Below are positions 11,085 to 29,374 of a stretch of DNA of 40,140 nt, piece by piece. How positions within the stretch are numbered: the stretch's first letter is position 1; every line of letters starts with the position of its first letter. The translations under genes were made by a program, and so were the position numbers. The notes beneath the pieces are model-generated. The model was not told where the DNA came from. It did no database searches and saw nothing but the letters and a program-made list of their open reading frames with translations. This stretch comes from Bordetella genomosp. 4 (GTDB lineage Bacteria; Pseudomonadota; Gammaproteobacteria; Burkholderiales; Burkholderiaceae_B): positions 1 to 40,140 of the forward strand of contig NZ_NEVQ01000014.1 of NCBI RefSeq assembly GCF_002261185.1, in the 5' to 3' direction.

Positions 11085-11564
11085 TCAAGCAGCATCATCC
11101 ACGGCTCCGTCGCTCTGGTCCGCTACAGGCTCGTGCCAATGCATCAGCGTCTTTAGCATTTCGACAAAAGAGGCCGCGCGCTCCGGATCAAATGACGCCA
11201 GTATTTCACGTTGATGGGCCATCGCCTGATCGCACAAGCTGCCGATCAATCGCCGTCCCGCCGCGGTAATCCGCACCTGAGTTTGCCGGCGATCCGCTCG
11301 CACGCCGACGCGTTCTACCCAACCGTCGATCTCCATACGCTGCACCACTTTGCTCAACGTAGGCTGTTTGGTGATGGCCAGGCGCGCCAAGGATCCGATG
11401 GTTTCGCCCGTGCCGCCCATCAAGCTCGCCAATACGCGCCACTCCGTCACCGAAAGCCCTGCCGCATTGACCTGCAAGTGGAAGTCCGCCGAGATGCGAT
11501 GGCTGGCCTGCGCCAATAGATAAGCCAGATATTCGTCTACAAAACGCGTCGATGGCGGATTCAT
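11085..11564 (-). CDS. MarR-family regulator of the adjacent aromatic catabolic operon
   Basis: This 159-residue protein has the MarR winged-helix layout: a dimerisation helix (RFVDEYLAYLLAQASHRI), then LSVTEWRVLASLMGG, recognition region ITKQPTLSKVVQRME near residues 63-77, and the wing GVRADRRQTQVRITAAG with the conserved DRR. It is divergent from the 14-gene operon that starts at 11877. MarR repressors are known to govern auxin (indole-3-acetate) catabolic loci in several plant-associated proteobacteria, and its placement suggests the same role, released by an indolic ligand. Its start codon overlaps the stop of a 66-codon upstream frame (ATGA). Confidence 0.88.
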   Translation of the reverse strand: MNPPSTRFVDEYLAYLLAQASHRISADFHLQVNAAGLSVTEWRVLASLMGGTGETIGSLARLAITKQPTLSKVVQRMEIDGWVERVGVRADRRQTQVRITAAGRRLIGSLCDQAMAHQREILASFDPERAASFVEMLKTLMHWHEPVADQSDGAVDDAA

Positions 11565-11761
11565 TCGGCCTCATCTTTACTTCGAAACCAGGCACGGTTC
11601 GCACCTGCACCAACATGACTGCCGGATGCTGTGCCGCACCATACCGCGATGCCCTGTTTTAGCATGCCATGCACCAATTCGATACAGGGTAAACCTGGAT
11701 ATAAATCATCTTCCCAAGCCATATACACCCTTGTTTCTAAGTGATATTTTGTCTTTTCCAT
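11561..11761 (-). CDS. 66-codon leader frame overlapping the MarR start
   Basis: This frame begins at ATG 11761 (MEKTKYHLETRVYMAW) and its TGA overlaps the MarR ATG by the ATGA arrangement, as in translationally coupled genes. The product has no recognisable domain, two Cys, and no signal. The ribosome-binding site is not obvious. It could be a genuine small protein, a translated leader, or chance. Confidence 0.3.
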   Translation of the reverse strand: MEKTKYHLETRVYMAWEDDLYPGLPCIELVHGMLKQGIAVWCGTASGSHVGAGANRAWFRSKDEAE

Positions 11762-11779
11762 GAAAAATCATATTTTTTG

Positions 11780-11808: not shown

Positions 11809-11876
11809 ATTTATTCGTGACGCGATCGCGGCAAAAAACACGGGCTCTCGACAGCTCCGGACTCAGGGAAAACGGC

Positions 11877-14252
11877 ATGGCTGAAAGATCTTTCAAGAAA
11901 GAAGTCCAGCAGTTGCGCATCGGCGCCGGCACGGAATTCCGCGGCGAAGGCATTCTGGCTGTGACCAAAGGCCTGCTGCAGGCCGGCGTGGGCTACGTGG
12001 GCGGTTATCAGGGCTCGCCGATTTCGCACTTGATGGATGTCTTGGCCGACGCAAACGAGATCCTGCAAGAGCTGGGCGTGCATTTTGAGGCCAGCGCCTC
12101 CGAGGCCACTGCCGCCGCGACGCTCGCCGCCTCAGTCATGTATCCGATTCGCGGCGCCGTCACCTGGAAATCCACCGTCGGCACGAACGTGGCCTCTGAT
12201 GCGCTGGCCAATCTGGCCTCGGGCGGCGTCACGGGCGGCGCGCTGATCATTGTGGGAGAGGACTACGGCGAGGGCTCCTCCATCATGCAAGAGCGCTCGC
12301 ATGCTTTTGCAATGAAATCGCAAATCTGGCTGCTGGACCCGCGCCCCAATCTGGAAAGCATGGTCAAGGCGGTCGAAGACGGATTCGAGCTGTCCGAGGC
12401 CAGCAATACCCCTGTGATGCTGCAACTGCGCATCCGCGGCTGTCATGTGCATGGGCGATTTATTGCCAAGGACAACAAACGCCCCGCATTCACGCTGGCC
12501 CAAGCGCTGGAAAATCCCTCACGCGATACCAATCGCATCGTGTTGCCGCCCGCCTCGTTTTTGCACGAGCAGGAAAAGATCAAAAACCGCTGGCCCGCCG
12601 CGGTGCGCTATATCCAGGAACATCAGCTCAACGAATTCATGGACGATGGCGATCTGCAGGATATCGGTTTGATCCTGCAAGGCGGTCTGTATAACGGCGT
12701 CATCCGCGGATTGCAGTTGCTGGGATTGGCGGATCACTTTGGCAATAGCCGCATACCGCTCTACGTCATGAACGTCACCTACCCGGTCATCGAGGACGAG
12801 GTGCAGCGTTTCTGTACGGGCAAGCGCGCCGTGTTGATGCTGGAAGAAGGTCAGCCCGATTATCTGGAACAGAATCTGCACGCCATCCTGCGCAAGGCCG
12901 GCGTAGCCACTGCGTTGCATGGTAAAGATTTTCTGCCGATGGCGGGCGAGTACACCACGCAGGTGCTGCGCGATGGGATACGCGGGTTCCTGGCCAAGTA
13001 TCAACCCGAGGTGCTGCAGACGCATCCGGCAGTCGCGGCAGATGCCGGACCGCTGTCGGCCACACCCGTGAATCCGGCACACACTGACACCCGTCAGCAA
13101 TCGCTGCGGAACCTGGTGCAGGAAACCGTGCTCGATTCGCCGCAACCACACGCAGTGAAGCAGGCATCAATCAGCCCGGGCGCACCGGGAACAGGAGCCG
13201 CTCAGTCCCATACGGCAACACAGGTGCCCAGCGGTACGGGTGCCAAAGCGCTCCCTAAAGAACAACCCATCACGTTCCACAAACACATCGCGGATCTGGC
13301 TCAGGTCGTACCGCCCCGCCCGGCGGGCTTTTGTACGGGCTGTCCGGAACGGCCTATTTTTTCCGCGCTGACGCTGGCGCAGGAAACGCTGGGACAACAC
13401 CATATTTCCTGTGACATCGGCTGCCATCTGTTCTCGATTTTGCCGCCGTTCAATCTCGGCGCGACGACGATGGGGTATGGCCTGGGTGCATCCAGCGCAG
13501 CCGCTTTCAATGTTCCGGCAGCAAAGCGGCCCATCTCGATCATGGGCGATGGCGGTTTCTGGCATAACGGGCTGGCGTCGGGCATCGGCAATGCGGTATT
13601 CAACAAGTACGACGGCGTCATCGTCATCGTCGACAACTTTTATGCCTCAGCGACGGGCGGCCAGGACATCCTGTCCTCGCGCGCGCAGAACCCGGATCGC
13701 AGCACCAACAACCCTATCGATGCGGCCGTGCGCGGCGTGGGCGTCAAGTGGGTGCGCACGCTGGATCGCACCTACGACGTCGCCAAGGTCCGCGCCACGA
13801 TCGAAGAAGCCCTGACCACGGACGAAAAAGGTCCAAAGGTCATCATCGCGCAGTCCGAGTGCATGCTGAATAAGCAACGGCGCATCAAGCCGCAGTTCAA
13901 CCAGGCCGTCAAAGACGGCAAGCGCGTGGTGAAGGAACGTTTTGGCGTCGATCCCGATGTCTGCACGGGCGATCACGCGTGCATCCGCTTGTCGGGCTGC
14001 CCGTCGCTGAGCGTGAAAGACAGCGGGGATCCGTTGAAAGAGGACCCGGTGGCGCATGTGGAAAGCAGTTGCGTCGGCTGCGGTAATTGCGGTGAGGTCG
14101 CTCACGCCGCTGTGCTGTGCCCCTCGTTTTATCGCGCCGATATCGTGCATAACCCGACGAAATGGGATCTCACTGCTGCACGCGTGCGCGGCGCTGTCAT
14201 TGGTTTCTTGCAAAGGCGGCGCGCCAGACGCCTGGCACAGACCGCTTGGTAA
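11877..14252 (+). CDS. indolepyruvate:ferredoxin oxidoreductase-like alpha subunit (thiamine-diphosphate and iron-sulfur)
   Basis: The start at ATG 11877 has AGGGAA upstream; the frame is open to 11817. The 791-residue protein contains a pyrimidine-binding domain (about 15-200, with GYQGSPISHLMD), a domain III-like region (265-375), a Pro/Ala/Thr-rich linker (about 385-465), a thiamine-diphosphate domain with GFCTGCPERP at 484-492 and GDGGFWHNG at 557-565 ending in VDN at 585-587, and C-terminal iron-sulfur Cys (696, 702, 708; CVGCGNC at 732-738; C748). Such enzymes oxidatively decarboxylate aryl 2-oxoacids to acyl-CoA and reduce ferredoxin. In this operon the likely 2-oxoacid is isatinate (2-aminophenylglyoxylate) rather than indolepyruvate; that is inference from neighbours. 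The beta subunit follows. Confidence 0.88.
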   Translation: MAERSFKKEVQQLRIGAGTEFRGEGILAVTKGLLQAGVGYVGGYQGSPISHLMDVLADANEILQELGVHFEASASEATAAATLAASVMYPIRGAVTWKSTVGTNVASDALANLASGGVTGGALIIVGEDYGEGSSIMQERSHAFAMKSQIWLLDPRPNLESMVKAVEDGFELSEASNTPVMLQLRIRGCHVHGRFIAKDNKRPAFTLAQALENPSRDTNRIVLPPASFLHEQEKIKNRWPAAVRYIQEHQLNEFMDDGDLQDIGLILQGGLYNGVIRGLQLLGLADHFGNSRIPLYVMNVTYPVIEDEVQRFCTGKRAVLMLEEGQPDYLEQNLHAILRKAGVATALHGKDFLPMAGEYTTQVLRDGIRGFLAKYQPEVLQTHPAVAADAGPLSATPVNPAHTDTRQQSLRNLVQETVLDSPQPHAVKQASISPGAPGTGAAQSHTATQVPSGTGAKALPKEQPITFHKHIADLAQVVPPRPAGFCTGCPERPIFSALTLAQETLGQHHISCDIGCHLFSILPPFNLGATTMGYGLGASSAAAFNVPAAKRPISIMGDGGFWHNGLASGIGNAVFNKYDGVIVIVDNFYASATGGQDILSSRAQNPDRSTNNPIDAAVRGVGVKWVRTLDRTYDVAKVRATIEEALTTDEKGPKVIIAQSECMLNKQRRIKPQFNQAVKDGKRVVKERFGVDPDVCTGDHACIRLSGCPSLSVKDSGDPLKEDPVAHVESSCVGCGNCGEVAHAAVLCPSFYRADIVHNPTKWDLTAARVRGAVIGFLQRRRARRLAQTAW

Positions 14253-14263
14253 TACCGCAGTAT

Positions 14264-14291: not shown

Positions 14292-14332
14292 CCGAATGAT
14301 GATCTGTATGGTTTTCCCATCTCGAGACTCGC

Positions 14333-15877
14333 ATGCACACGAACGCTGTAACCGCCGCATCTCCGATCAAAATCGCTGTCCTCGCCATGGGCGGCCAAGG
14401 CGGAGGCGTGTTGGCTGATTGGATCGTGGATATGGCCGAACACGCAGGCTGGTGGGCGCAAACGACCTCCGTTCCGGGTGTCGCGCAGCGTACCGGAGCC
14501 ACGATTTACTATCTGGAGCTCTTGCCTGAATCCGCTGTGCAACAGGCCGGCCGCCAACCGGCTCTGGCCCTCATGCCTACGCCCGGCGATGTCGATCTGG
14601 TCGTGGCGGCGGAATTGATGGAAGGCGGCCGCGCCATTCAACGTGGTCTCGTGACGCCTGAACGCACGACGTTGATCTCTTCGTCGCATCGCAGTTTTGC
14701 GGTCAGCGAAAAATCTGCGCCTGGTAACGGGATTGCCGATCCGAACAAGGTGCTCGATGCTGGACGTGTCGCCGCACAGCGTTTTCTGTGCTTTGATTTG
14801 CAAGCGTTGGCGGATCAGGCCGGCAGTGTCATCAGCGCCAGCCTGTTTGGCGCCGTAGCGGGCAGTGGCGCCCTGCCCTTTAGCCGCCAGGACTTCGAGG
14901 CCACGATTGAGCGCGGCGGCCTCGGCGTCAAAGCGAGCTTGCGTGCATTCGCGCTGGGCTATGAGGCTGCCGCGACGGCTCCGGCCGTTCCTGCCCCGAT
15001 TGATCGCGTACGCGAAATGCCTGCGGTGCCGACGCGGGCCGCCACACCGGGCGCGCAGGCGCTGCTGGATCGCATCAAGCGTGATTTTCCGGGCGTGGCG
15101 CAGCCGCTGCTGGCCGCCGGGACACAGCGTACGGCCGAATTTCAAGACATGGCGTATGCCCGCGAATACCTGGATCGCATGGCAACGCTGCACGCATTGG
15201 ACGCGCAATATGGCGGTGCCGGTCACGATTGGGCATTGACCTGTGCAGCGGCGCGCTACCTGGCGGTGGCGATGGCGTACGACGACGTCATTCGAGTGGC
15301 CGATCTCAAAACGCGCGGCAGCCGATTCGATCGCGTGCGTACCGAGGTCGGCGCCAAAGCCGGTCAACTGGTGTACACCACGGACTATATGCATCCCCGC
15401 GTCGAGGAGATCTGCGGCACGCTGCCTGCAGGCCTGGGACGCTGGATCGAACGCTCGCCCAGCCTGTCGGGATTTGTCAGCCGCCGCCTGGGCAAAGGAC
15501 GCCGCCTGAACAGCGCCTCGTTGACGGGCTTTCTGATGCTCTATGGCCTCTCAGGCATGCGGCGCATCCGCCGCCGGACCTTGCGCCATCAGATCGAAAC
15601 GCAAGCCTTGCAGGAATGGCTGGATTTGATCACCGAGCTCGCCCCTCGCGATTACGCACTCGCCGTCGAGGTCGTGAACTGCCGCAGGCTCGTCAAAGGC
15701 TACAGCGACACGCATTCACGCGGCACCAGCAAGTACGGCACCTTGCTCGACACTGCCCGTCAGTTGGCGGGCCGCCCCGATGCCGCGCAAACGCTGCGCG
15801 GTTTGCGTGAAACCGCCCTGTCGCAAGTCGCCTGCGGCCCACTGGAAAACCAAGCCAAACAAGCGATCGCTGCATGA
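14333..15877 (+). CDS. indolepyruvate:ferredoxin oxidoreductase-like beta subunit with DUF6537-type C-terminal domain
   Basis: The 514-residue protein has the gamma/beta catalytic domain of 2-oxoacid oxidoreductases at residues ~12-210, beginning KIAVLAMGGQGGGVLADW, with SVPGVAQRTGATIYYLE. Residues ~235-500 form the long helical extension (DUF6537-type) seen in proteobacterial indolepyruvate oxidoreductases, including FQDMAYAREYLDRM and YTTDYMHPRVEEICG. With the alpha subunit it should form the CoA-dependent decarboxylating enzyme. The ribosome-binding site is poor, so translation may rely on flow from the upstream gene. Its stop overlaps a possible start of the reductase gene (ATGA at 15874). 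Confidence 0.87.
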   Translation: MHTNAVTAASPIKIAVLAMGGQGGGVLADWIVDMAEHAGWWAQTTSVPGVAQRTGATIYYLELLPESAVQQAGRQPALALMPTPGDVDLVVAAELMEGGRAIQRGLVTPERTTLISSSHRSFAVSEKSAPGNGIADPNKVLDAGRVAAQRFLCFDLQALADQAGSVISASLFGAVAGSGALPFSRQDFEATIERGGLGVKASLRAFALGYEAAATAPAVPAPIDRVREMPAVPTRAATPGAQALLDRIKRDFPGVAQPLLAAGTQRTAEFQDMAYAREYLDRMATLHALDAQYGGAGHDWALTCAAARYLAVAMAYDDVIRVADLKTRGSRFDRVRTEVGAKAGQLVYTTDYMHPRVEEICGTLPAGLGRWIERSPSLSGFVSRRLGKGRRLNSASLTGFLMLYGLSGMRRIRRRTLRHQIETQALQEWLDLITELAPRDYALAVEVVNCRRLVKGYSDTHSRGTSKYGTLLDTARQLAGRPDAAQTLRGLRETALSQVACGPLENQAKQAIAA

Positions 15878-15903
15878 ATTGCTGCGATCGCTACGGAGAC
15901 ATC

Positions 15904-16893
15904 GTGCAGACTTTGAACCTCATCATTCGCGACATCCAGCAGGCCACGCCGCTGGTGCGCACCTTTGTGCTGGAAAATACGGACGGCGACGCGCTGCCTG
16001 CATTCGAGCCCGGCGCGCATTTGAAAGTCCAGATCCCGGGCCTGGCCGAACCTCGTTGCTATTCGCTGATCGCAACGTGCGCTGATACCTCGGCCTTTGC
16101 CGCTCCTCGTCAATATCGCTTGGGGGTTCGCCTGGATGAAGCCGGCGGCGGCGGATCGCGCTACATGCATGGGTTAGCAGTCGGCGACACGTTGACGGTG
16201 CAAGGGCCGAAGAACGACTTCCCGCTGCACGCCTGCTCGTCACAGGAATCGGCTGAGCGCCATCGGACCGTGCTCATTGCAGGCGGTATCGGCATCACCC
16301 CTATCGCATCGATGGCTGCAGCACTGAAACACGCGGACCGCGAGTTCGTCTTGCATTATTGCGGACGCAGCCGCGATCAATTGGCCTTGGTCGAAGAACT
16401 GCACACCTTGGCCGGCGACGGTCTCAATGTACATGTGGACGACGATCCGCTGTCCGCGTTGAATGTCGGCGCATTACTGGATACCTACGCCCCGCATCAA
16501 CATCTGTATGTCTGCGGGCCACAAGGCATGATCGATGCAGTCATTGCGGGGGCACGCCAACGGCAATGGCCTGACACGCACATACATTTCGAGCTGTTCA
16601 CCACGGCTGCCCCGTTGGCGGGCGATCAGCCCTTTGAGGTCGAACTCAAGCAAAGCGGCATGGTGCTGACCATCCCCGCTGACAAAACCATCGTCGAGGT
16701 GATGGAGGAAGCTGGCTGCGATCCCATGTATGACTGCAAGCGCGGCGAATGCGGCGTCTGTCAGGCCACTGTCCTCGAGGGCACGCCCGATCACCGCGAC
16801 TATTACCTGTCGGACGCAGAAAAAGCCGAAGGCAAACTGATCCAGATCTGCATCTCGCGCGCGAAATCCGCACGCCTGGTGCTGGACCTGTGA
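15904..16893 (+). CDS. phthalate-dioxygenase-reductase-type ferredoxin reductase of the Rieske oxygenase
   Basis: I chose GTG 15904 because GGAG lies at 15894-15897; the alternative is ATG 15874, which overlaps the upstream stop but lacks a ribosome-binding site and adds ten residues. The protein of about 329 residues has a flavin domain with RCYSLIA near 55, an NAD domain with AGGIGITPIASM near 125 and YVCGPQGM near 205, and a C-terminal plant-type 2Fe-2S domain with CKRGECGVC and a distal Cys (IQICISRAKS). It should pass electrons from NADH to the Rieske oxygenase encoded next. In iad-type auxin loci a reductase of this kind partners the oxygenase. Confidence 0.88.
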   Translation: MQTLNLIIRDIQQATPLVRTFVLENTDGDALPAFEPGAHLKVQIPGLAEPRCYSLIATCADTSAFAAPRQYRLGVRLDEAGGGGSRYMHGLAVGDTLTVQGPKNDFPLHACSSQESAERHRTVLIAGGIGITPIASMAAALKHADREFVLHYCGRSRDQLALVEELHTLAGDGLNVHVDDDPLSALNVGALLDTYAPHQHLYVCGPQGMIDAVIAGARQRQWPDTHIHFELFTTAAPLAGDQPFEVELKQSGMVLTIPADKTIVEVMEEAGCDPMYDCKRGECGVCQATVLEGTPDHRDYYLSDAEKAEGKLIQICISRAKSARLVLDL

Positions 16894-16923: not shown

Positions 16924-18249
16924 ATGGGCCATTATCGCAACAACCCCGACGCCATCCGTGCCCTGGTGCGCGACACCGAGGTGCACAAAGACCTGTTCGT
17001 CGATCAAGAACTGTTCGAACTGGAAATGGAACAGCTGTATACCCGCACCTGGGTCTATGTGGGCCATGACAGCCAGGTTCCGAATCCCGGTGACTACATC
17101 ACCACGACAGTCGGCGACGAGCCGGTAGTCATGGTGCGCCATACGGATCGCAGCGTCCGCGTCTTGATCAATCGCTGTCCGCACAAGGGCACCATGGTCG
17201 CGGGCGACGCATGCGGCAATACGGGTAAATTTTTCCGCTGCCCCTATCATGCATGGACATTCAAAACCGACGGCAGCCCGTTGTCCATTCCGCTAAAAAA
17301 GGGCTATGAGAACACCGGCCTGGAACACTGCGAGGCCAGCAAAGGCATGGCCGCAGTCGCCAATGTCCGCAATCACCGGGGATTTGTGTTCTGCCGCCTG
17401 AGCGACGAGGGCGAGGACTTCGAAACCTTTTTTGGCGAGTCTCTGTCCACGCTGGACAATATGGTGGATCGATCGCCCGAGGGCCGGCTCGAGGTGGCTG
17501 GCGGCGTATTCCGTTATATGCATCGCTGCAACTGGAAAATGCTGGTCGACAACCAGACCGACACCTGCCACCCGATGGTGGCGCACGAGTCGTCCGCCGG
17601 CACTGCCGTACGTGTCTGGGAAAAGGCCCCAGAAGGCACGCCCAAGCCTATGGCGGTCGAGCTGTACGCGCCGTTCATTTCACCGTATGAGTTTTTCGAG
17701 GGGATGGGCATCCGTGTATGGGAAAACGGGCATGGGCACACTGGCGTCTCTGATTCGATTCACGCCTCGTACTCGGCGATCCCCGGCTATTGGGACGCGA
17801 TGGTGGCAGCCTACGGCGAGGATCGCGCAAAGGCCATCCTGGGCGATGTGCGTCACAACACCGTATATTTCCCCAACATCATGGTAAAGGGCCCGATTCA
17901 AACGCTGCGTATTTTCAAGCCGCTGGCGGCGGATCGTACGCTGGTCGAGTCTTGGACATTCCGTCTGGTCGGCGCCCCGGATCTGTTGCTGGAGCGCACG
18001 CTGATGTATAACCGCCTGATCAATGCCCCCACCTCGGTAGTGGGCCACGACGATCTGGAAATGTACGAACGCGCTCAGGACGGCCTGCGCACGCGCGCGC
18101 GCAGCTGGGTCAATGTAGGCCGCCTCTACGACCCTGCCGAACACAGTCAGAAGAATGCCGTCACCAACGGCACCAACGAATGGCAGATGCGTAATCAGTA
18201 TCGAGCCTGGGCACGCTATATGACCCAGGGCATGGAGGACGCAGCATGA
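16924..18249 (+). CDS. Rieske non-heme iron oxygenase, large (alpha) subunit
   Basis: The 441-residue protein follows the reductase by 30 bases with GGGGAAA before its ATG. The Rieske cluster is complete: Cys85, His87, Cys106 and His109 in CPHKG and CPYHAWTF. The mononuclear iron site has bridging Asp213, His216 and His221 (NQTDTCHPMVAH) and a carboxylate in GHDDLEMY near 376. Length and motifs fit a ring-hydroxylating dioxygenase alpha subunit. By context the substrate is an indolic acid; iad-type Rieske enzymes oxidise indole-3-acetate at the pyrrole ring, which I infer here. The stop overlaps the beta-subunit start (ATGA). Confidence 0.92.
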   Translation: MGHYRNNPDAIRALVRDTEVHKDLFVDQELFELEMEQLYTRTWVYVGHDSQVPNPGDYITTTVGDEPVVMVRHTDRSVRVLINRCPHKGTMVAGDACGNTGKFFRCPYHAWTFKTDGSPLSIPLKKGYENTGLEHCEASKGMAAVANVRNHRGFVFCRLSDEGEDFETFFGESLSTLDNMVDRSPEGRLEVAGGVFRYMHRCNWKMLVDNQTDTCHPMVAHESSAGTAVRVWEKAPEGTPKPMAVELYAPFISPYEFFEGMGIRVWENGHGHTGVSDSIHASYSAIPGYWDAMVAAYGEDRAKAILGDVRHNTVYFPNIMVKGPIQTLRIFKPLAADRTLVESWTFRLVGAPDLLLERTLMYNRLINAPTSVVGHDDLEMYERAQDGLRTRARSWVNVGRLYDPAEHSQKNAVTNGTNEWQMRNQYRAWARYMTQGMEDAA

Positions 18250-18752
18250 ACTCGTCAACGACCGCCGTGAGCGAACAGGACCTGCTCGACTTTGTCTATG
18301 CCGAGGCGAGGCTGCTGGATGAGCTGAAATTCGAGCAATGGCTGGCGCTCTATACCGACGATGCGTACTACTGGATGCCGCTCGCACATGACCAGCAGGA
18401 TCCTCGCCTGCACGCCTCGTTGATGTACGAGGACAAACTGCTGCTGCAAGTGCGCATCGAACGCCTGGCCGGACAACGCACGTTTTCGCAGCAACCCAAA
18501 AGCCGTTGCCACCATCTGCTGCAACGGCCCACGATCGAGCGCGATCATCCCGAACATGTGCCAGACCAAGGACGCTATGTCGTGCGCGTGGCGTTTCACT
18601 ATGTCGAGACACGGCAGGATGCGCAGCAGCTCTACGCGGGCTGGTCCACGCTGCATCTGGTCGAACACGAGGGCGCACTGCGCATCCGGCTGAAACGGGT
18701 GGACCTGGTCAATTGTGACGCCGCCTTTGGCAACATCCAGCTATTCATGTAA
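18246..18752 (+). CDS. ring-hydroxylating oxygenase small (beta) subunit
   Basis: The 168-residue protein has the NTF2-like fold of dioxygenase beta subunits: VYAEARLLDELKFEQWLALYTDDAYYWMP near the N-terminus and a C-terminal strand pair RIRLKRVDLVNCD followed by LFM. It has no cofactor motifs, as expected for a structural partner of the alpha subunit. ATGA overlap with the alpha gene indicates coupled translation and a fixed subunit ratio. Confidence 0.9.
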   Translation: MNSSTTAVSEQDLLDFVYAEARLLDELKFEQWLALYTDDAYYWMPLAHDQQDPRLHASLMYEDKLLLQVRIERLAGQRTFSQQPKSRCHHLLQRPTIERDHPEHVPDQGRYVVRVAFHYVETRQDAQQLYAGWSTLHLVEHEGALRIRLKRVDLVNCDAAFGNIQLFM

Positions 18753-20396: not shown

Positions 20397-21568
20397 CCAC
20401 GCTGCGTCGCGGATACGAGGGTGTGGTCGCGGTATGCCCCGTGACGATACCCTATGCGCGCTACAGCACGCATAGCGCCCACTGGTGGCTGGGTCGCGCA
20501 TTGTATGAGTTGCTGCAAGCGTCGGGTCTGCAAAAGACGGATGTCGATGGCATGTGCGTCTCGAGCTTTACGCTGGCACCGGATACTGCGGTCGGCTTGA
20601 CTCAACATTTAGGCATGGCACCGCGTTGGCTCGACCACATTCCCATGGGCGGAGCGAGCGGCGTCGTGGCCCTGCGCAGGGCTGCTCGTGCCGTGCAAGC
20701 CGGTGACGCCGACGTCGTCGCCTGCCTGGCGGGCGATACCAATCATGTGGACTCGTTTCGCAACACGGTCAGCCAGTTTTCGCGCTTTGCCCAGGACGCC
20801 GTGTACCCGTATGGCGCCGGGGGGCCCAATGCGAGCTTTGCGCTGCTGACGGCGCACTACATGGCGCAAACTGGCGCCACACGCGAGGATTTCGGCAAGC
20901 TGTGTGTGGCTCAGCGCGACAATGCGCTGCGCTATCCCCACGCGCTGATGAAAAAGCCGCTGAGCCTGCAACAGTACATGGATGCGCGACTGATCACCGA
21001 CCCGATCCATCTGTTTGATTGCGTCATGCCTTGCGCGGGCGCGGATGCGTTCCTGGTGATGAGTACCGATCGCGCAAAGGCGCTGGGTCTGACCGGTGTA
21101 CGTATCCTGTCGACCATTGAGCGGCACAACGCCTGGAGCGACGATCCGATCCAGCAGCGCGGCGGATGGACCATGGACGTGGACGAGCTCTACGCGTTGG
21201 CAGGCCGTGGGCCGCAGGACATGGATTTTATGCAAGCCTACGACGACTATCCCGTCATCAACCTGATGCAGATCGAAGATCTCGGGTTTTGCGCCAAGGG
21301 CGATGCGCCGCAGTTTGTGCGCGACAACACGTTCACGGTAGATGGGACCTTTCCCTTTAATACCAACGGCGGCCAACTCTCTGTCGGTCAGGCTGGCGCG
21401 GCGGGTGGCTATCTGGGACTGGTCGAAGCGCTGCGGCAACTGACGGACACCGCAGGCGGCACGCAGGTCGCACAGGCACATACAGGACTGGTCAGCGGTT
21501 TCGGCATGATCAACTACGACCGCGGACTATGCACTGCCGCTGCGGTCTTGGCCAGGAGCGACGCATGA
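20393..21568 (+). CDS. thiolase-like protein without thiolase catalytic residues (candidate retro-aldolase)
   Basis: The ATG at 20393 follows AGGAGG at 20380-20385 and overlaps the ligase stop. The 391-residue protein is colinear with SCP2-type thiolases and lipid-transfer proteins (AGDTNH, YDDYPV near 283, GFCAKG). The nucleophilic Cys is absent: the site reads MGGASG at 85-90. The GHP histidine is also lost, reading GQAGAAGG at 332-339. Thiolysis or Claisen condensation is therefore unlikely. Ltp2-type proteins of steroid side-chain breakdown also lack the Cys and act as retro-aldolases with a DUF35 partner, and the next gene here encodes DUF35. I infer cleavage of a beta-hydroxyacyl-CoA to a ketone (isatin) and acetyl-CoA. 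Confidence 0.85.
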   Translation: MTTLRRGYEGVVAVCPVTIPYARYSTHSAHWWLGRALYELLQASGLQKTDVDGMCVSSFTLAPDTAVGLTQHLGMAPRWLDHIPMGGASGVVALRRAARAVQAGDADVVACLAGDTNHVDSFRNTVSQFSRFAQDAVYPYGAGGPNASFALLTAHYMAQTGATREDFGKLCVAQRDNALRYPHALMKKPLSLQQYMDARLITDPIHLFDCVMPCAGADAFLVMSTDRAKALGLTGVRILSTIERHNAWSDDPIQQRGGWTMDVDELYALAGRGPQDMDFMQAYDDYPVINLMQIEDLGFCAKGDAPQFVRDNTFTVDGTFPFNTNGGQLSVGQAGAAGGYLGLVEALRQLTDTAGGTQVAQAHTGLVSGFGMINYDRGLCTAAAVLARSDA

Positions 21569-22806
21569 CGCAACCGCTGAATCCTCCGGCCAAGAAAAAC
21601 CCTATCGCCCGGACACGACAGCCCACGCTGCCGCCCAACCCACGCAGCCGTTGCGCGCTCGGACTGACGCGCGCCGCCGCGTTGGGTCGATTCGAACTGC
21701 AGGTATGCTCGGCCTGCGAAACGGTGCAATATCCGCCGCGCGAAGTCTGCGGCGCATGCCTGTCGCATGAGTTGAGCTGGAGATCCGTCAACCCCGCAGG
21801 CGTATTGCTCGCGAGCACCACTTTGCACCATAGCAACGACCTGTATTTCCGTGAACGCCTGCCGTGGAGAGTCGGCACCGTGCGCATGGATGTGGGCCCT
21901 TCCGTAGTAGCGCATGTGCATCAAGACTGCGCCGATGGCGCACGCATACGCCTGACGTTGCGCCTGGATCGCTCCGGACAGGCCGTCATGATCGCTTTAC
22001 CCGAAAAGGACACGCCGCATATGGCTGACGATCCCGTTCTGCGCGAGACCTCGTGCGATCCCAAATACCGCCGCGTATTGATCACCGACGGTAAATCGAC
22101 TGCTGGCCGGGCCCTGGCCTCCGCGTTGCTGGATGCGGGCGCATCGACGATATTCCTCGGCGATCCGCAGCCCTGGCGTTCTGTCGAGGCCTATAACGCC
22201 CTGCTGCAAGACGAGCGCGTCCAGGCCGTCACGCTGGACATCACCGACACCGATTCGGTACAGCGAGCGGCCGCGTCTCTAGGGGGCAAGGTCGAGATTC
22301 TGATCAATACCGCCGACATGGAGCGCGAAGGCGGCGTCATGGCCTCCCGCGACGTCAACGTCGCGCGGGATGCGCTGGATATCAATGTGCTGGGCCTGAT
22401 GCGCTTGGCCCAACATTTCGGGCCGGCACTATGCGGGCGCGCTGCCGACGGAACACGCAATGCCGTGGCCTGGGTCAATATCCTGTCGATCTACGCCCAG
22501 ATGAACCTGCCCTCGCGCGGCATGTGGTCGGCGTCCAAGGCTGCTGCATTGTCATTGTCGCAATGCTTGCGCGCCGAGATGCGGCCATCGGGGATTCGCG
22601 TCATCAATGTATTTCCTGGGCCGCTGGATCACGAATGGGAACAACGCACGCCACCGCCACGCGTCACGCCGCAAGCGCTGGCGCAAGCGGTCGTCCGCAG
22701 TTTGAAACAAGGAATCGAGGACGTGTACGTGGGAGACGTCGCGCAGGAATTCTGCGAACGTCTGACAGAAAACCCCAAAGCGCTTGAGCGCGAATTGGGC
22801 GCCTGA
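21565..22806 (+). CDS. DUF35 (zinc ribbon plus OB-fold) protein fused to a degenerate SDR domain
   Basis: The start at ATG 21565 overlaps the thiolase-like stop and has AGGAG at 21554-21558. The 413-residue protein has two parts. Residues ~30-150 are DUF35: a zinc ribbon with Cys48, 51, 62 and 65, then an OB-fold. Residues ~168-400 have the short-chain dehydrogenase fold, but key positions are changed: the Gly-rich turn reads TDGKSTAG at 174-181, the NNAG motif reads INTAD at 247-251, and the catalytic Tyr is Trp321 in WSASK, although Ser308 and Lys325 remain. The SDR part is probably not a working dehydrogenase. DUF35 proteins dock on thiolase-like enzymes, so this likely forms a complex with the preceding gene product. 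Confidence 0.85.
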   Translation: MTQPLNPPAKKNPIARTRQPTLPPNPRSRCALGLTRAAALGRFELQVCSACETVQYPPREVCGACLSHELSWRSVNPAGVLLASTTLHHSNDLYFRERLPWRVGTVRMDVGPSVVAHVHQDCADGARIRLTLRLDRSGQAVMIALPEKDTPHMADDPVLRETSCDPKYRRVLITDGKSTAGRALASALLDAGASTIFLGDPQPWRSVEAYNALLQDERVQAVTLDITDTDSVQRAAASLGGKVEILINTADMEREGGVMASRDVNVARDALDINVLGLMRLAQHFGPALCGRAADGTRNAVAWVNILSIYAQMNLPSRGMWSASKAAALSLSQCLRAEMRPSGIRVINVFPGPLDHEWEQRTPPPRVTPQALAQAVVRSLKQGIEDVYVGDVAQEFCERLTENPKALERELGA

Positions 22807-22863
22807 GGCGGTCATTACGACGCACACGCCGCATTCCCCTATCGATTGATTGGAGCCTTGGTA

Positions 22864-23679
22864 ATGGATACCAATGTATTGACCCAGTTCATGAGCGAAT
22901 TGATGAGTGGCCGCATTCGCATCGTGGACCTGACCGAAACCCTGACGCCGGAGTTTCCGACCATCGTGCTGCCGCCGGAGTTCGGCCAGGCCTGGCCATT
23001 CCGTCTGGAGGAAATTTCCCGCTATGACGAACGGGGTCCGGCTTGGTATTGGAATAATTTCTCGTGCTCCGAGCATACCGGCACTCACTTCGATGCGCCC
23101 GCGCATTGGGTGTCCGGTAAAGATCAACCCGACAATACCGTCGACACCATTCCGATCGAATCATTCATTGCGTCGGCCTGCGTCATTGATTGCTCGGAGC
23201 CCGCTCGCGACAATCCCGATTTTCTGCTGACGATAGATTATGTGCGCGAATGGGAGGCCACTCATGGCCGCATTCCCGCGCGCAGTTGGGTCTTGATGCG
23301 TACAGATTGGTCCAAACGGGCCAAACCCGTGGACTATCTGAATATGCGCGAAGACGGCGCGCACTCGCCTGGGCCCGACGCCGACGTCGTACCGTGGCTG
23401 ATACGCGAACGCGACGTGCATGGCTTTGGCACCGAGTCCGTAGGCACGGATGCCGGACAGGCCCAGCATCTGGATCCGCCCTATCCCTGCCATTACTACA
23501 TGCACGGCAATAACCGCTATGGGCTGCAGTGTCTGACGAACCTGGACCAGTTACCGGCCACCGGTGCAGTCATTTTTTCGGCACCGCTGAAAATCCGCAA
23601 AGGGTCTGGCAGCCCGTTGCGGGTATTGGCCCTTACCCCATCCGCGTCCGCGCAGGCTACGCGGGATGCCACGCATTGA
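22864..23679 (+). CDS. isatin-hydrolase-like metal-dependent hydrolase (cyclase family)
   Basis: The start at ATG 22864 is placed 8 bases after GGAG; the frame is open to 22846. The 271-residue protein has the cyclase-family metal motif HTGTHFDAPAHW at 71-82 (His71, His75, Asp77, His81), shared with kynurenine formamidase and isatin hydrolase, and a second region GTDAGQAQHLDPPYPCHYYMHG. Isatin hydrolase opens the lactam of isatin to isatinate using manganese. The oxindole-type context favours that reaction over formamidase, but sequence alone cannot separate them. The expected product, an aryl 2-oxoacid, would suit the oxidoreductase that opens the operon. Confidence 0.85.
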   Translation: MDTNVLTQFMSELMSGRIRIVDLTETLTPEFPTIVLPPEFGQAWPFRLEEISRYDERGPAWYWNNFSCSEHTGTHFDAPAHWVSGKDQPDNTVDTIPIESFIASACVIDCSEPARDNPDFLLTIDYVREWEATHGRIPARSWVLMRTDWSKRAKPVDYLNMREDGAHSPGPDADVVPWLIRERDVHGFGTESVGTDAGQAQHLDPPYPCHYYMHGNNRYGLQCLTNLDQLPATGAVIFSAPLKIRKGSGSPLRVLALTPSASAQATRDATH

Positions 23680-23725
23680 CCTGCGGCAATTCGCACGAGA
23701 CGATATACAGATCACAGGGGAATTC

Positions 23726-24457
23726 ATGGAAAACAAGAACTATGTCGCGCTGGTCACCGGCGGCAGCGCCGGGATAGGCGCCGAAATCTGCCGCAGCATG
23801 CTCGATGCGGGCTGGCGCGTCGTGTCGTTGGCGCGGCGCGATCCCGATTTCACGCACGAACGCCTGATCAGTGTGCAGGCGGATTTACTGGATGCGAACG
23901 CTACTGCAAAGGCTGCCGCGCAAATCGCCCAGGACTATCCCGTCAGCCATATTGTGCATAACGCAGGCGTCATCTGGCCTAACCTGCTGCCTGACGTCAC
24001 GCAAGAACAATTGCATGGACTGACCCAATTGCATCTGGGCGCCGCCATCAGCCTGGTACAGGCGGCCTTGCCCGGCATGCAGGAGCGCAAGTTCGGCCGT
24101 ATTGTGTTGATGTCTTCGCGCGGCGCGCTGGGGCTGCCTACGCGCACGGCATACTCCGCCACCAAGGCCGGCATGATAGGCATGGCGCGCACGTGGTCGC
24201 TGGAACTGGCGCCGCATGGCATCACAGTCAACGTCGTCGCTCCGGGCCCCATCAAAACAGATATGTTCCACGATGTCATTCCCGCCGGCAGCGAGCGCGA
24301 ACAGCAGCTCGCGCGCGGCATCCCGGTGCAACGCGTAGGCCTGCCGGATGATGTGGCCCGCGCGGTGATGTTTTTTGCTGATCCCGCCAACAGTTTCGTA
24401 ACGGGGCAAACCTTGTACGTCTGTGGCGGCGCCAGTGTGAGTTCCATCACGATCTGA
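23726..24457 (+). CDS. short-chain dehydrogenase/reductase
   Basis: ATG at 23726 follows AGGGGA at 23716-23721; an upstream in-frame extension to 23666 lacks this. The 243-residue protein has intact SDR motifs: TGGSAGIG at 11-18 for the cofactor, NAG at 79-81, and Ser130, Tyr143 and Lys147 (YSATK) for catalysis. It therefore looks active, unlike the SDR domain fused to DUF35 upstream. It could oxidise or reduce a hydroxy/keto intermediate of the pathway; the substrate cannot be read from sequence. It is the last enzyme gene before the transporter genes. Confidence 0.9.
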   Translation: MENKNYVALVTGGSAGIGAEICRSMLDAGWRVVSLARRDPDFTHERLISVQADLLDANATAKAAAQIAQDYPVSHIVHNAGVIWPNLLPDVTQEQLHGLTQLHLGAAISLVQAALPGMQERKFGRIVLMSSRGALGLPTRTAYSATKAGMIGMARTWSLELAPHGITVNVVAPGPIKTDMFHDVIPAGSEREQQLARGIPVQRVGLPDDVARAVMFFADPANSFVTGQTLYVCGGASVSSITI

Positions 24458-25737: not shown

Positions 25738-26781
25738 ATGAATGCGCAGATCGCCTTGATCCTGGGGCAGGATGGCATTACCAACGGCGCGGTCTACGCG
25801 CTGTTGGCACTGTCCATCCTGCTGGTTTTCACCGTCACCCGGGTGCTGTTCATTCCGCAGGGGGAGTTCGTCGCTTTTGGTGCGCTGACCATGGCGGCGC
25901 TGCAAGCGGGCACGCCGACACGCATGGTGTGGTTGCTCGCAGGCTTCGCGGTGGCGGAATTTCTGGCCGATGTCATCGCCGCACGCCGGCGCACAGGGAA
26001 CCTGCGCATAGGTCCCTGGATGATCATCAAGCTGATCTATCCATTCGCGCTGGCCGTCCTGCTCTATGCCTTGCCGTTGGCCTCATTACCCATGGTGCTG
26101 CGCGCGCTGCTCGCATTGGCGATTCTCGTCCCCATGGGTCCGCAGCTCTACCGTTTGTTTTTTCAACCCATCGCATCAGCATCCACCTTGGTGTTGTTGA
26201 TCGTGTCCATCGCCGTACACCTGGCCCTGGTGGGTCTGGGTTTATTGATCTTCGGCCCCGAGGGCGCGCGTACCGATCCGTTCAGTGATGTCAGTTTTCC
26301 GCTGGGACCGATCAACATCAACAGTCAGGCGATCTGGGTCGTCCTCGTGTCCTTGATCCTCATCGTGGTGCTGTATACGTTCTTTGAACGCACCATGTAT
26401 GGCAAAGCCCTGCGAGCCGCGGCATTCAACCGCCTTGGCGCGAGACTCATGGGGATTTCGCCGACGCTGGCCGGCAAGGCTACATTTTTTTTGGCCGCGT
26501 TGATCGGCACGGTCTCGGGCATCCTCATCGCTCCGATTACCACCATCTATTTCGACTCGGGTTTTCTCATCAGCCTGAAAGGCTTTGTCGGTTCGATCAT
26601 CGGCGGATTGGTGAGCTATCCGATCGCCGCCGCAGGGGCTGTGCTCGTGGGGTTGATCGAGGCTTTCTCCGCATTCTGGGCCAGTGCCTATAAAGACATC
26701 ATCGTGTTCACGCTCATCATCCCCGTACTCGTCTGGCGTTCACTGAAAAGCCATCATGTCGAAGAGGAGGACGACGAGTGA
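25738..26781 (+). CDS. Liv-type ABC importer, permease (LivH-like)
   Basis: The 347-residue membrane protein has about nine hydrophobic segments and the LivH start pattern GITNGAVYALLALSILLVFTV followed by FIPQGEFVAFGAL. It is longer than the usual ~290 residues because of an extra loop and helices around residues 75-175. The EAA-like cytoplasmic loop is FNRLGARLMGISP. It pairs with the LivM-like half of the next gene; the genes overlap by GTGA at 26778. Confidence 0.9.
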   Translation: MNAQIALILGQDGITNGAVYALLALSILLVFTVTRVLFIPQGEFVAFGALTMAALQAGTPTRMVWLLAGFAVAEFLADVIAARRRTGNLRIGPWMIIKLIYPFALAVLLYALPLASLPMVLRALLALAILVPMGPQLYRLFFQPIASASTLVLLIVSIAVHLALVGLGLLIFGPEGARTDPFSDVSFPLGPININSQAIWVVLVSLILIVVLYTFFERTMYGKALRAAAFNRLGARLMGISPTLAGKATFFLAALIGTVSGILIAPITTIYFDSGFLISLKGFVGSIIGGLVSYPIAAAGAVLVGLIEAFSAFWASAYKDIIVFTLIIPVLVWRSLKSHHVEEEDDE

Positions 26782-28574
26782 AGCCGCGCCACATTGTCCT
26801 GATTTTCCTGGCGCTCTTGTTGCTGGCGCCGCTGGTATTGCCGCCGTTCTACGTCACGCTGCTGAACTACATCGGTCTGTATGCGATGGTGTCGTTGGGC
26901 CTGGTGCTGTTGACCGGTGTGGGAGGCCTGACGAGTTTCGGACAGGCGGCGTTCATAGGGCTGGGCGCATACACCACCGCGGTGCTGACCACGCAAGCCG
27001 ACAGCTTGCCTGCATGGCTGGCTTGGATGGGGACATCGCCGTGGATCACGTTGGTCGTCGGCCTGATATTGACCTTGATTGTTGCCTGGCTGCTGGGCGC
27101 GATCACCTTGAGCCTGTCCGGGCATTTTCTGCCGTTGGGCACGATCGCGTGGGGGCTGAGCCTTTACCTCGCGTTCGGCTCTGTCGAGGGGCTGGGCGGC
27201 CATACAGGCCTGCCCGACATTCCGCCGATTTCGCTCGGCAGCCTGGTATTGAATACCGGTCCAAGCATTTACTACCTGATCTGGGCGTTCCTGATGCTGG
27301 CTGTCTGGTGCACGCGCAATTTGCTGGACTCCCGCGAGGGCCGCGCTATACGCGCCTTGAAAGGCGGACGCATCATGGCTGAGTCCATGGGGGTGAACAC
27401 CACGCGTGCACGCATGGTGATCTTTCTCATCGCCGCGTTGCAGGCCTGCGCCTCGGGCTGGTTGTATGCCCATATGCAGCGCTTTGTTAACCCCCATCCG
27501 TTCGGCCTGCAAATGGGCATCGAATACATGTTCATGACGGTGATCGGCGGTGCGGGCCACGTATGGGGCGCGATTGCCGGTGCGGGGATTTTCACTGTGC
27601 TGAAGCAATGGCTTCAGGACTGGATGCCGCGTTTGCTGGGTCAAACCGGCAATTTCGAGATCATCGTTTTTGGCTTTGGCATGGTGCTCTTGCTGCACCG
27701 TGCGCGGGGCGGCGTATGGCCTGTTTTGGCGAAACTAGTTCCGGTCAAGAAGGCTCCGTTGCAGGTCAATCGGCAAGCCGAACCCCTGCCCCGCCGCGAC
27801 ATGCCCGCACCCGGGACGGTCTTGCTGGAAGCGCGCGACGTGACGCGCAAATTTGGCGGCCTGGTCGCCAACAACGCGATGAGCCTTACCGTTCATGCCG
27901 GCGAGATCCTGGCCCTGATAGGCCCGAATGGCGCGGGGAAAAGCACCATGTTCAACCAGATCAGTGGTGTTGATACGCCGACCTCTGGGCAAGTGCTGCT
28001 GCGCGGCGAATCTGTTGCTGGAACCGGTGCCCGGCACATTGCTGGCTTGGGCCTGTCGCGCACGTTTCAACACGTCAAGCTGCTGAGCCGCATGACGGTC
28101 TTGGAGAACGTCGCGATCGGCGCCCATCTACGTGGACATCGTGGCGTAATACAAGCTGCATGGCGACTAGATCGCCAGGAAGAACAACGCCTGCTGGCCG
28201 AGGCAGCACGTCAGATCGAACGTGTGGGGCTCGGCAAGCATCTGCATGACGAGGCGGGATCGCTGGCGCTGGGACAACAACGCATTCTGGAGATCGCTCG
28301 CGCTCTCGCATCCGACCCGTGCTTGCTGCTGTTAGACGAGCCCGCCGCCGGATTGCGTTATCAGGAAAAACAGGAACTGGGCGAACTCCTGCGGCGCTTG
28401 CGTGCCGAGGGAATGGGCATACTGCTCGTGGAACACGATATGGATTTTGTCATGGGCCTCGTGGATCGCGTCGTGGTTATGGACTTCGGCCAGAAAATCG
28501 CAGAGGGCCTGCCAGCGGAGATTCAATCGCATCCCGCCGTGCTGGAGGCTTATCTCGGAGGCATAGACGACTGA
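26778..28574 (+). CDS. fused LivM-like permease and LivG-like ATPase
   Basis: This 598-residue protein begins at GTG 26778, overlapping the LivH-like stop. Residues ~1-315 form a LivM-type permease (YAMVSLGLVLLTGVGGLTSFGQAAF; loop ESMGVNTTRARM). After a linker, residues ~350-598 form a LivG-type ATPase: Walker A GPNGAGKS, signature LALGQQR, Walker B LLLLDEPAAGL. Fusion of these two subunits recurs in aromatic-linked Liv systems. With LivH- and LivF-like partners it completes an inner-membrane importer. Confidence 0.92.
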   Translation: MKPRHIVLIFLALLLLAPLVLPPFYVTLLNYIGLYAMVSLGLVLLTGVGGLTSFGQAAFIGLGAYTTAVLTTQADSLPAWLAWMGTSPWITLVVGLILTLIVAWLLGAITLSLSGHFLPLGTIAWGLSLYLAFGSVEGLGGHTGLPDIPPISLGSLVLNTGPSIYYLIWAFLMLAVWCTRNLLDSREGRAIRALKGGRIMAESMGVNTTRARMVIFLIAALQACASGWLYAHMQRFVNPHPFGLQMGIEYMFMTVIGGAGHVWGAIAGAGIFTVLKQWLQDWMPRLLGQTGNFEIIVFGFGMVLLLHRARGGVWPVLAKLVPVKKAPLQVNRQAEPLPRRDMPAPGTVLLEARDVTRKFGGLVANNAMSLTVHAGEILALIGPNGAGKSTMFNQISGVDTPTSGQVLLRGESVAGTGARHIAGLGLSRTFQHVKLLSRMTVLENVAIGAHLRGHRGVIQAAWRLDRQEEQRLLAEAARQIERVGLGKHLHDEAGSLALGQQRILEIARALASDPCLLLLDEPAAGLRYQEKQELGELLRRLRAEGMGILLVEHDMDFVMGLVDRVVVMDFGQKIAEGLPAEIQSHPAVLEAYLGGIDD

Positions 28575-29374
28575 TGCTCAACTCACACACGCCCCCGGAC
28601 AGCCCCATGAACCGCACAAGCGCAGACGCGCTCGCGCATCCATCCGCCCCGCGCGACCTCTTGCGAGTCACGAACCTGCATGTCGCCTATGACAAGATCG
28701 AAGCGATCTCTGGCATCAATCTACGTGTAGGCGAAGGGCAGATCGTCACCGTGATCGGTCCCAACGGCGCTGGCAAGACCACATTATTGGCGGCCATCAT
28801 GGGCGTGTTGCCCTCACGCGGCGAGATCGTTTTTGATGGCCACCCTCACGTGCATGCCGAGATCGAGGAAATGGTCGCGGCGGGCATGAACCTGGTTCCT
28901 GAAAAGCGCGAACTATTCGCCGAGATGAGCGTGGAAGACAACCTGATGCTGGGCGCATTTCACCGCTATCGCTCGGGCCAGCGCGACCACCATGCCAGTC
29001 TGCAAGAGGTCTACGAACTATTTCCCAGATTGCGCGAACGCCGCACACAATTGTCCGGCACACTGTCCGGCGGGGAACGGCAAATGCTGGCCGTCGGACG
29101 AGCCCTGATGGCGAAGCCCAAGCTGCTGATGCTGGACGAACCGAGCCTGGGCCTGGCACCACGCATCGTGCGTGAGGTATTCCATATCGTGGCTGAACTG
29201 CGCCGGCGCGGTGTATCCATCCTGCTGATAGAACAAAACGCCCGCGCCGCCCTGCAAGTCGCCGACTATGCCTACGTACTGGAAACCGGCGCCATCACGA
29301 TCGACGGGTCGGCCGCGGATATCGCGCGGGATAAGCGGGTGATTGATGTTTATCTTGGGTTAGGGAAACACTGA
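28574..29374 (+). CDS. Liv-type ABC importer, ATPase (LivF-like)
   Basis: The start at ATG 28574 overlaps the stop of the fused gene (TGATG); another ATG at 28607 is possible. The 266-residue protein has Walker A GPNGAGKT, signature LSGGERQ and Walker B LLMLDEPSLGL, with the LivF hallmark VPEKRELFAEMSVEDNL. It closes the 14-gene operon. Transcription from the other side (codA) converges 74 bp away. Confidence 0.92.
   Translation: MLNSHTPPDSPMNRTSADALAHPSAPRDLLRVTNLHVAYDKIEAISGINLRVGEGQIVTVIGPNGAGKTTLLAAIMGVLPSRGEIVFDGHPHVHAEIEEMVAAGMNLVPEKRELFAEMSVEDNLMLGAFHRYRSGQRDHHASLQEVYELFPRLRERRTQLSGTLSGGERQMLAVGRALMAKPKLLMLDEPSLGLAPRIVREVFHIVAELRRRGVSILLIEQNARAALQVADYAYVLETGAITIDGSAADIARDKRVIDVYLGLGKH

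Follow-up and report, generated by a model that had tools for sequence, protein, structure and literature searches.

An iad locus of Bordetella genomosp. 4 with a proposed thiolase-fold aldolase, isatin hydrolase and isatinate oxidoreductase

Organization of the locus

A 40,140-nucleotide stretch of the genome of Bordetella genomosp. 4 (GCF_002261185.1, contig NZ_NEVQ01000014.1, positions 1 to 40,140; referred to here as the window) contains at 11085-29374 an operon that, by sequence comparison, is an iad locus for the degradation of indole-3-acetate (IAA), a locus type and substrate that are already published and not new. Judged from its genes and those of related genomes, the route probably runs from IAA to dioxindole-3-acetate, its CoA ester, isatin plus acetyl-CoA, isatinate, and 2-aminobenzoyl-CoA. 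An earlier description of this DNA, made from the letters alone (the sequence-only reading), had reported 14 same-strand genes facing a marR, and these were confirmed: a divergent marR on the minus strand (11085-11564) lies opposite a tight run of 14 plus-strand genes (11817-29374, iadA to iadN). The many four-base overlaps that it noted are present at B/C, D/E, F/G and L/M, and also at G/H if IadH begins at the second ATG (21565), which is probably its start. Its list of domains, namely oxidoreductase, reductase, Rieske pair, ligase, thiolase-like protein, fusion of DUF35 with a short-chain dehydrogenase/reductase (SDR), isatin-hydrolase-like protein, SDR and importer, was borne out as well. 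The features are as follows (TPP, thiamine pyrophosphate).

11085..11564, minus strand: iadR, MarR repressor (best solved relatives 7KKI/7KFO)
11760..11771, no strand: putative IadR operator, ATGA-N4-TCAT (recurrent in iadR-iadA gaps)
11817..14252, plus strand: iadA, TPP/Fe-S alpha subunit of a TPP oxidoreductase (TPP_enzyme_C domain)
14333..15877, plus strand: iadB, POR + DUF6537 subunit (domains; PRK08312)
15874..16893, plus strand: iadC, oxygenase reductase (FAD/NAD/2Fe-2S domains)
16924..18249, plus strand: iadD, Rieske alpha subunit (match to Variovorax IadD 9O71)
18246..18752, plus strand: iadE, Rieske beta subunit (match to the 7YLS/8H2T/9O71 sequence)
18762..20396, plus strand: iadF, AMP-dependent CoA ligase, proposed for dioxindole-3-acetate (AMP-binding domain)
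20393..21568, plus strand: iadG, proposed thiolase-fold retro-aldolase (sequence, fold, residues)
21529..22806, plus strand: iadH, predicted DUF35 aldolase partner fused to a degenerate SDR (zf-ChsH2/OB_ChsH2_C and adh_short)
22846..23679, plus strand: iadI, proposed isatin hydrolase of the cyclase family (isatin-hydrolase matches, residues)
23666..24457, plus strand: iadJ, intact SDR, second oxidation step (motifs; role taken from PMC12633357)
24549..25700, plus strand: iadK, periplasmic binding protein (matches to 3SG0 and 7YLT)
25738..26781, plus strand: iadL, permease (domain)
26778..28574, plus strand: iadM, permease-ATPase fusion (domain)
28565..29374, plus strand: iadN, ATPase, start probably ATG 28574 (domain)

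The conserved start of iadA is probably ATG 11877; strong conservation of IadA begins at residue 22.

The operon was compared with the best 80 IadG contigs (named loci, L numbers; genomes carry G numbers) of at least 452 confirmed relatives, so that sets of 81 sequences consist of these 80 and the window. The gene order R-A-B-C-D-E-F-G-H-I-J-K-L-M-N was seen again in named contigs of Achromobacter and Bordetella, and was kept in part in contigs of Aromatoleum, Pusillimonas and others among these 80. Since the order recurs in related genomes, the arrangement is not due to chance. None of the eight same-genus genomes searched contained IadG at ≥60% identity, and the locus is therefore patchy within the genus.

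Relationship to characterized iad loci

The window IadD matched the Variovorax IadD of 9O71 with 653 bits over 436 residues, while its best match outside IadD was 157 bits, and the sole solved sequence matching IadE at E ≤ 1e-10 was that of 7YLS/8H2T/9O71; 9O71 is the IadDE of Variovorax (PMC12633357). The best solved relatives of IadR, at 119 bits, were 7KKI/7KFO, entries of the Variovorax MarR paper, and IadR Ser25 and Arg43 aligned to Ser28 and Arg46 of MarR_73, which contact IAA (PMC9613470). The genes iadA and iadB are markers of iad loci, with iadA next to iadR (PMC9613470), and both markers adjoin IadR in the window operon. Comparison with characterized loci thus places the operon within the known iad type, and the orthology of IadD, IadE and IadR to the Variovorax locus supports IAA as its substrate, as the sequence-only reading had suggested. 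Its statement that such loci have isatin and anthranilate as intermediates was also right, and is already in print.

In the 2025 preprint describing the pathway (PMC12633357), IadCDE acts as a monooxygenase, followed by the IadJ dehydrogenase, to give C10H9NO4 (dioxindole-3-acetate). The sequence-only reading had predicted 3-hydroxy-2-oxindole-3-acetate as the product; the step leading to it is amended, the Rieske reaction being read as monooxygenation with dehydrogenation by IadJ after it. Of 57 IadJ orthologs, all have the dinucleotide motif TGxxxGxG and 56 have both SDR motifs intact. Beyond dioxindole-3-acetate, the preprint assigns IadF, IadG as a 'ketothiolase', IadH as an 'alcohol dehydrogenase' and IadI as a 'broad-specificity amidase', with anthranilate as the end product. 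The main text of the preprint does not name iadA or iadB.

A thiolase-fold protein and its DUF35 partner

Analysis of IadG argues against a thiolase. The thiolase nucleophile position is occupied by Gly86-Gly87 in 81/81 IadG sequences, and the catalytic Cys is missing without exception. The description of IadG as a 'Cys-less' thiolase thus holds for the catalytic residue and not for the whole protein, which keeps other, non-catalytic Cys residues. All 81 sequences also contain Tyr283-Asp-Asp-Tyr (283-286), with Tyr283 at the catalytic-base position, and Gln333, as in Sal. The best sequence match was Sal 9MYR, and the predicted fold (mean predicted local distance difference test score, pLDDT, 80.5) matched Sal 9MYR best and Ltp2 6OK1 second, these being structures of the Sal-DUF35 and Ltp2-DUF35 aldolases. 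Sal and Ltp2 are thiolase-fold aldolases held by a DUF35 partner, in which the Tyr of a YDxx motif is the base, and the nucleophile position of Sal is Gly (PMC12329534). Residues and modeled fold together support the prediction that IadG is a retro-aldolase and no thiolase.

The adjoining protein is consistent with this. IadH lies next to IadG in 79/80 named loci, and Cys60, 63, 74 and 77 of its DUF35 domain are kept in at least 97% of 76 sequences. In the SDR part, TGxxxGxG was found in 0/72 named fused sequences, compared with 57/57 for the neighboring IadJ, and the window IadH carries Trp333. Six named loci (L072, L087, L089, L091, L094 and L110) encode a DUF35 protein that has no SDR domain after it. 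From its sequence, the SDR part does not look like a working dehydrogenase, and the role that suits IadH best is that of partner to the aldolase.

Similarity of IadI to isatin hydrolases

The best solved matches of IadI were the isatin hydrolases 5NNA/5NNB/5NMP (378-390 bits). Isatin hydrolase A has been described with its Mn ligands and proton shuttle (PMC6117287); by alignment, IadI carries the Mn ligands and equivalents of His79/His207/Asp193 and Gln219. His77, His81, Asp83, His87, Asp202 and His216 of IadI were present in 77/77 sequences and Gln228 in 72/77. The gene was found within 8.5 kb of IadG in 77/80 named loci, the misses (L095, L097 and L108) being at contig ends. IadI is accordingly proposed, on residue conservation, to be an isatin hydrolase.

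Other gene sets contained related genes. Elsewhere in the same genome (G000:C16 955200-975100, L054) a second isatin-hydrolase-like gene (57%) occurs with a Rieske alpha/beta pair (44/42%), an SDR, an AraC gene and an amine-oxidase-like flavoprotein; this is possibly an indole operon. Modules of iadG-H-I lacking a Rieske gene were seen with Asp/Glu-racemase-family and CoA-ligase-like genes (L115 and L121, about 9-15 kb), and with a flavin reductase (L098 and L103).

IadAB and 2-aminobenzoyl-CoA clusters

IadAB has a TPP domain, Fe-S cysteines and a POR subunit, which are features of 2-oxoacid:ferredoxin oxidoreductases. IadB matched PRK08312 with 712 bits, above the cut-off, and the Fer4_10 match in IadAB (20.5 bits) was below the cut-off of 25.5. 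Isatinate, the sole 2-oxo acid in the proposed pathway, is proposed as the substrate of IadAB, and three kinds of comparison favor it: linkage, loci that lack iadG, and co-occurrence.

The genomic neighbors of iadAB included genes similar to 2-aminobenzoyl-CoA monooxygenase/reductase (ACMR-like). In seven loci, iadA and iadB were both no more than 10 kb from an ACMR-like gene: L139, L140, L143, L144, L178 (Alcaligenes faecalis AU14), L179 (Aromatoleum evansii KB740) and L181 (A. toluvorans). In L170, iadB alone, at a contig end, was within this distance, and in G036 and G285 iadAB was about 15-17 kb from an ACMR-like gene. The linked loci are not eight independent events, since L179 and L181 are from one genus and L139, L140 and L178 have one layout. 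L143 comprised a styrene-monooxygenase-like gene, a flavin reductase, iadI, an amine-oxidase-like flavoprotein, iadA, iadB, and ACMR-like and downstream genes, with no iadD-H within the 20 kb fetched. From its gene content, L143 looks like an indole operon. L151 contained iadA, iadB and iadI without iadG, and neither the L143 nor the L151 genome had IadG at E ≤ 1e-120.

The ACMR-like gene also co-occurred with IadG across genomes. Among 61 relatives it was found in 14/14 genomes with IadG (≥64% identity) and 13/47 others (p 9e-7); among the 28 genomes from other genera of the family, in 13/13 and 3/15 (p 1.5e-5); and at the order level, in 7/9 genomes with iadG and 35/291 others (p 2e-5), p values that are optimistic because the genomes share ancestry. 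It was present in 9/15 genomes with IadA at E ≤ 1e-180 versus 33/285 others, and in 4/8 of those with IadA and without IadG.

A benzoate-CoA-ligase-like gene was near the ACMR-like gene in 22/22 complete stand-alone clusters but only 2/8 IadAB-linked ones (p 5e-5). This count covers the subset of ACMR-like matches that was fetched, without the truncated L158; the stand-alone clusters were chosen among the matches before the ligase was inspected, and seven of the 22 are from the genus of the window, its own included. Also left out were L112, where the contig breaks off in a 37% IadB-like fragment some 9 kb away from the ACMR-like gene, and L146 (G285) and L141 (G036), with IadAB 15-17 kb off; none of the three has a CoA-ligase-like gene beside the ACMR-like gene. 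In G036 a CoA-ligase-like gene (59%) is near iadAB (L048).

The lack of the CoA-ligase-like gene in IadAB-ACMR-linked loci is only a tendency, as A. evansii and A. toluvorans keep the ligase. The idea that Alcaligenes-type loci lack IadAB, and that its presence goes with the SDR domain of IadH, was rejected: in those loci IadAB lies about 13 kb from iadG, past the first fetched flank, and L110 has IadAB with a short IadH.

The window's own genome had one ACMR-like gene above the family cut-off, clustered with SDR, enoyl-CoA hydratase, acyl-CoA dehydrogenase and benzoate-CoA-ligase-like genes. Aromatoleum evansii KB740 (L078/L179) had two ACMR-like genes, one of them about 3 kb from iadR of its iad operon. 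Aromatoleum (Azoarcus) evansii is the organism in which the ACMR/2-aminobenzoyl-CoA pathway was discovered. Anthranilate dioxygenase (TIGR03228) was not found above the cut-off in the 61 relatives, a set with no positive control; one of 300 order-level genomes was above it, so the search can detect the enzyme. The window's own genome likewise had no anthranilate dioxygenase above the cut-off, and its AndAc-like match reached 443 of 750 bits, a match through which this downstream route may be possible.

In L178, the region between iadI and iadB (10696-14764) encodes a gentisate-dioxygenase-like cupin (317 bits, cut-off 442), an ACMR-like gene and a thioesterase-like gene, the last with 38% identity to that of the window's own genome and no NCBIfam match. 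This gene set may be relevant to the long-standing question of an anthranilate-to-gentisate route in Alcaligenes (PMC6221969).

Proposed pathway and alternatives

From the gene content, residues, linkage and co-occurrence that were observed, we infer all of the substrates and reactions that follow. The products of the operon, which IadR would repress, would take up IAA and break it down to an aromatic acid activated with CoA. IadCDE and IadJ would form dioxindole-3-acetate, as published for Variovorax, and IadF would convert this to its CoA ester, a beta-tertiary-hydroxyacyl-CoA. In a retro-aldol step, IadG together with the DUF35 domain of IadH would then split the ester, releasing isatin and acetyl-CoA. 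IadI would hydrolyze isatin to isatinate (2-aminophenylglyoxylate), and IadAB, a TPP/Fe-S 2-oxoacid oxidoreductase, would form 2-aminobenzoyl-CoA by oxidative decarboxylation, to be taken further by the ACMR-like cluster encoded elsewhere in the same genome. The CoA ester and the last three reactions had been put forward in the sequence-only reading. The retro-aldol step fits the residues and modeled fold of IadG and, in IadH, both the DUF35 domain and the degenerate state of the SDR; the hydrolysis fits the residues of IadI; and the decarboxylation to anthraniloyl-CoA fits the linkage of IadAB to the ACMR-like gene. This chemistry goes beyond the iad papers cited here and is supported by these comparisons.

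Under the published assignment, the ketothiolase IadG and alcohol dehydrogenase IadH, with IadF, would remove the side chain reductively to give dioxindole (C8H7NO2), and IadI would act on this compound in a route that ends in free anthranilate. Mutant metabolomics favors this, in that C8H7NO2 (the formula of dioxindole) accumulates in the iadI deletion and with iadCDEFGH_JK2 (PMC12633357). However, a ketothiolase would have to work with Gly at the nucleophile position in every IadG, an alcohol dehydrogenase with no dinucleotide motif in 72/72 SDR parts and no SDR domain at all in six named loci, and the residues of IadI are those of isatin hydrolases, Gln228 occupying a position that is Glu in kynurenine formamidases, so that the assignment appears unlikely. 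It is similarly improbable that IadAB is an indolepyruvate:ferredoxin oxidoreductase feeding indolepyruvate into IAA metabolism, with free anthranilate as the end product. The published name iotA/iorB (PMC9613470) and the family names of the IadA and IadB matches point that way, as does the restoration of anthranilate without iadAB (PMC12633357), but in two loci without iadG, IadAB is accompanied by iadI (L151) or by iadI together with an ACMR-like gene (L143), and the CoA-ligase-like gene is missing from 6/8 IadAB-linked ACMR-like clusters. It is very improbable that the operon is dedicated to a different bicyclic aromatic acid and uses IAA only as a minor substrate. In favor of this, IadK is nearer to 3SG0 than to 7YLT, and iadGHI modules can occur without a Rieske gene (24/80 named loci, some of which are incomplete, have no iadD at ≥40%). 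Against it, IadD and IadE, as well as the residues of IadR that contact IAA, correspond to those of the Variovorax IAA locus.

Several observations weigh against the retro-aldol and isatinate route. The iadI mutant accumulates C8H7NO2 and not isatin (PMC12633357), for which the proposed pathway needs a side reduction. Expression of iadC-K2 without iadAB restored anthranilate (PMC12633357), so IadAB is not needed for anthranilate. IadA scored 264.1 bits against IOR_alpha, below the curated cut-off of 650.9, a result that also fails to identify it as an indolepyruvate:ferredoxin oxidoreductase. Two of the nine order-level iadG genomes (G065 and G315) lack an ACMR-like gene, and the NCBIfam name of the ACMR-like family is salicylyl-CoA 5-hydroxylase, the label ACMR-like having been set without a reference ACMR sequence. 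Tyr and Lys occur together in 8/76 IadH sequences, or 6/74 when L087 and L089, matches running through a stop into IadJ, are dropped; and the best 50 matches in the IadH fold search were all SDRs, aligned to the SDR part, with no DUF35 protein among them. Confidence in the modeled IadG fold is low for residues 129-144 and 327-332 (pLDDT <50), and Asp285 replaces the essential Cys304 of Sal and the His of Ltp2. As the second catalytic residue of Sal (Cys304) or Ltp2 (Tyr344) was not found in IadG, which has Asp285 and Gln333 instead, IadG may work like Sal and Ltp2 while belonging to neither clade.

The published metabolites also bear on IadAB. C8H7NO3 (the formula of isatinate) and C7H7NO strongly accumulated only with iadC-K2 overexpression (PMC12633357), in a strain that we infer lacked iadAB, because iadA adjoins iadR, iadC-K2 comprises nine genes and the deletion spans a 25-gene locus. 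This build-up could also come from overexpression alone. Listings of the open-licence literature gave no paper that calls IadI an isatin hydrolase or IadG an aldolase, or that names an isatinate oxidoreductase, which is a weak negative. Taken together, the comparisons suggest that the pathway differs from the published one at IadG, IadH, IadI and IadAB, and that some published assignments should be replaced, with side-chain removal through a steroid-type aldolase and 2-aminobenzoyl-CoA as the activated end product.

It is moderately likely that iad and a related indole pathway converge on isatinate, that IadAB is a new type of arylglyoxylate oxidoreductase forming 2-aminobenzoyl-CoA directly, with free anthranilate as a by-product, and that IadG-IadH is a third branch (YDDY) of DUF35-dependent thiolase-fold aldolases, outside steroid catabolism. 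It is through the iad route of auxin degradation that Variovorax can restore root growth, and work is under way to introduce this route into root bacteria; the full cassette of the preprint is marR73 with iadC-K2 (PMC12633357). If the proposal is true, iadC-K2 cassettes lack the step from isatinate to a CoA ester, the names thiolase, dehydrogenase and formamidase should be revised, and there would be a genetic basis for the use of isatinate when indole is degraded; two of the enzyme activities would be directly testable.

Regulation, transport and flanking genes

The motif ATGA-N4-TCAT was found in 31/35 iadR-iadA gaps, and in 22/26 groups after merging gaps with a common 80-mer, compared with 0.13 groups expected by mononucleotide shuffling; many of these loci are from Achromobacter and so are not independent. 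It was absent from the gaps of L048, L139, L140 and L178. The copy at 11760-11771 is a putative IadR operator. IadK matched 3SG0 with 346 bits and 7YLT, presumably IadK2, with 282 bits.

Directly downstream of the operon (29448-35468) are a minus-strand amidohydrolase and a second ABC importer with two permeases, a double ATPase and a Bmp-type binding protein. Upstream, at 5109-6416, is an open reading frame with a Hint_2 domain.

Comparison with known systems

The window operon shares with the iad loci of Variovorax paradoxus CL14 and Achromobacter (PMC9613470, PMC10374108, PMC12633357) a MarR gene beside iadA, the Rieske IadDE and the iadA/iadB markers, and isatin and anthranilate are among their published intermediates, as in the route proposed here. 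Variovorax iad has two MarR genes, whereas one was found among the 30 window open reading frames scanned, the rest of the genome not having been searched for a second (IadR2). The IadG, IadH and IadI assignments in the available passages of these papers differ from the present ones, and those passages contain no IadAB step.

With the steroid side-chain aldolases Sal-Shy(DUF35) and Ltp2-ChsH2(DUF35) (PMC12329534), IadG has in common the thiolase fold, Gly in place of Cys, the Tyr of YDxx, a DUF35 partner and, as proposed, a beta-hydroxyacyl-CoA substrate. By analogy, the bond broken in a retro-aldol reaction of dioxindole-3-acetyl-CoA corresponds to the one broken when a beta-hydroxy steroid CoA ester is cleaved. 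The systems differ in motif (YDDY versus YDCY/YDHF), in the fusion of the DUF35 partner to a degenerate SDR rather than a hydratase, and in substrate, a proposed oxindole rather than a steroid. Isatin hydrolase A (PMC6117287) and IadI have the Mn ligands, the His-His-Asp catalytic set and the Gln in common, although only IadI is within an IAA operon. The 2-aminobenzoyl-CoA pathway (PMC6221969) has a homologous ACMR-like cluster in the window's own genome, and in the A. evansii and A. toluvorans records such a cluster lies about 3 kb from iadR-iadA. In the known pathway 2-aminobenzoyl-CoA comes from anthranilate via a ligase, whereas in iad it is proposed to come from oxidation of isatinate.

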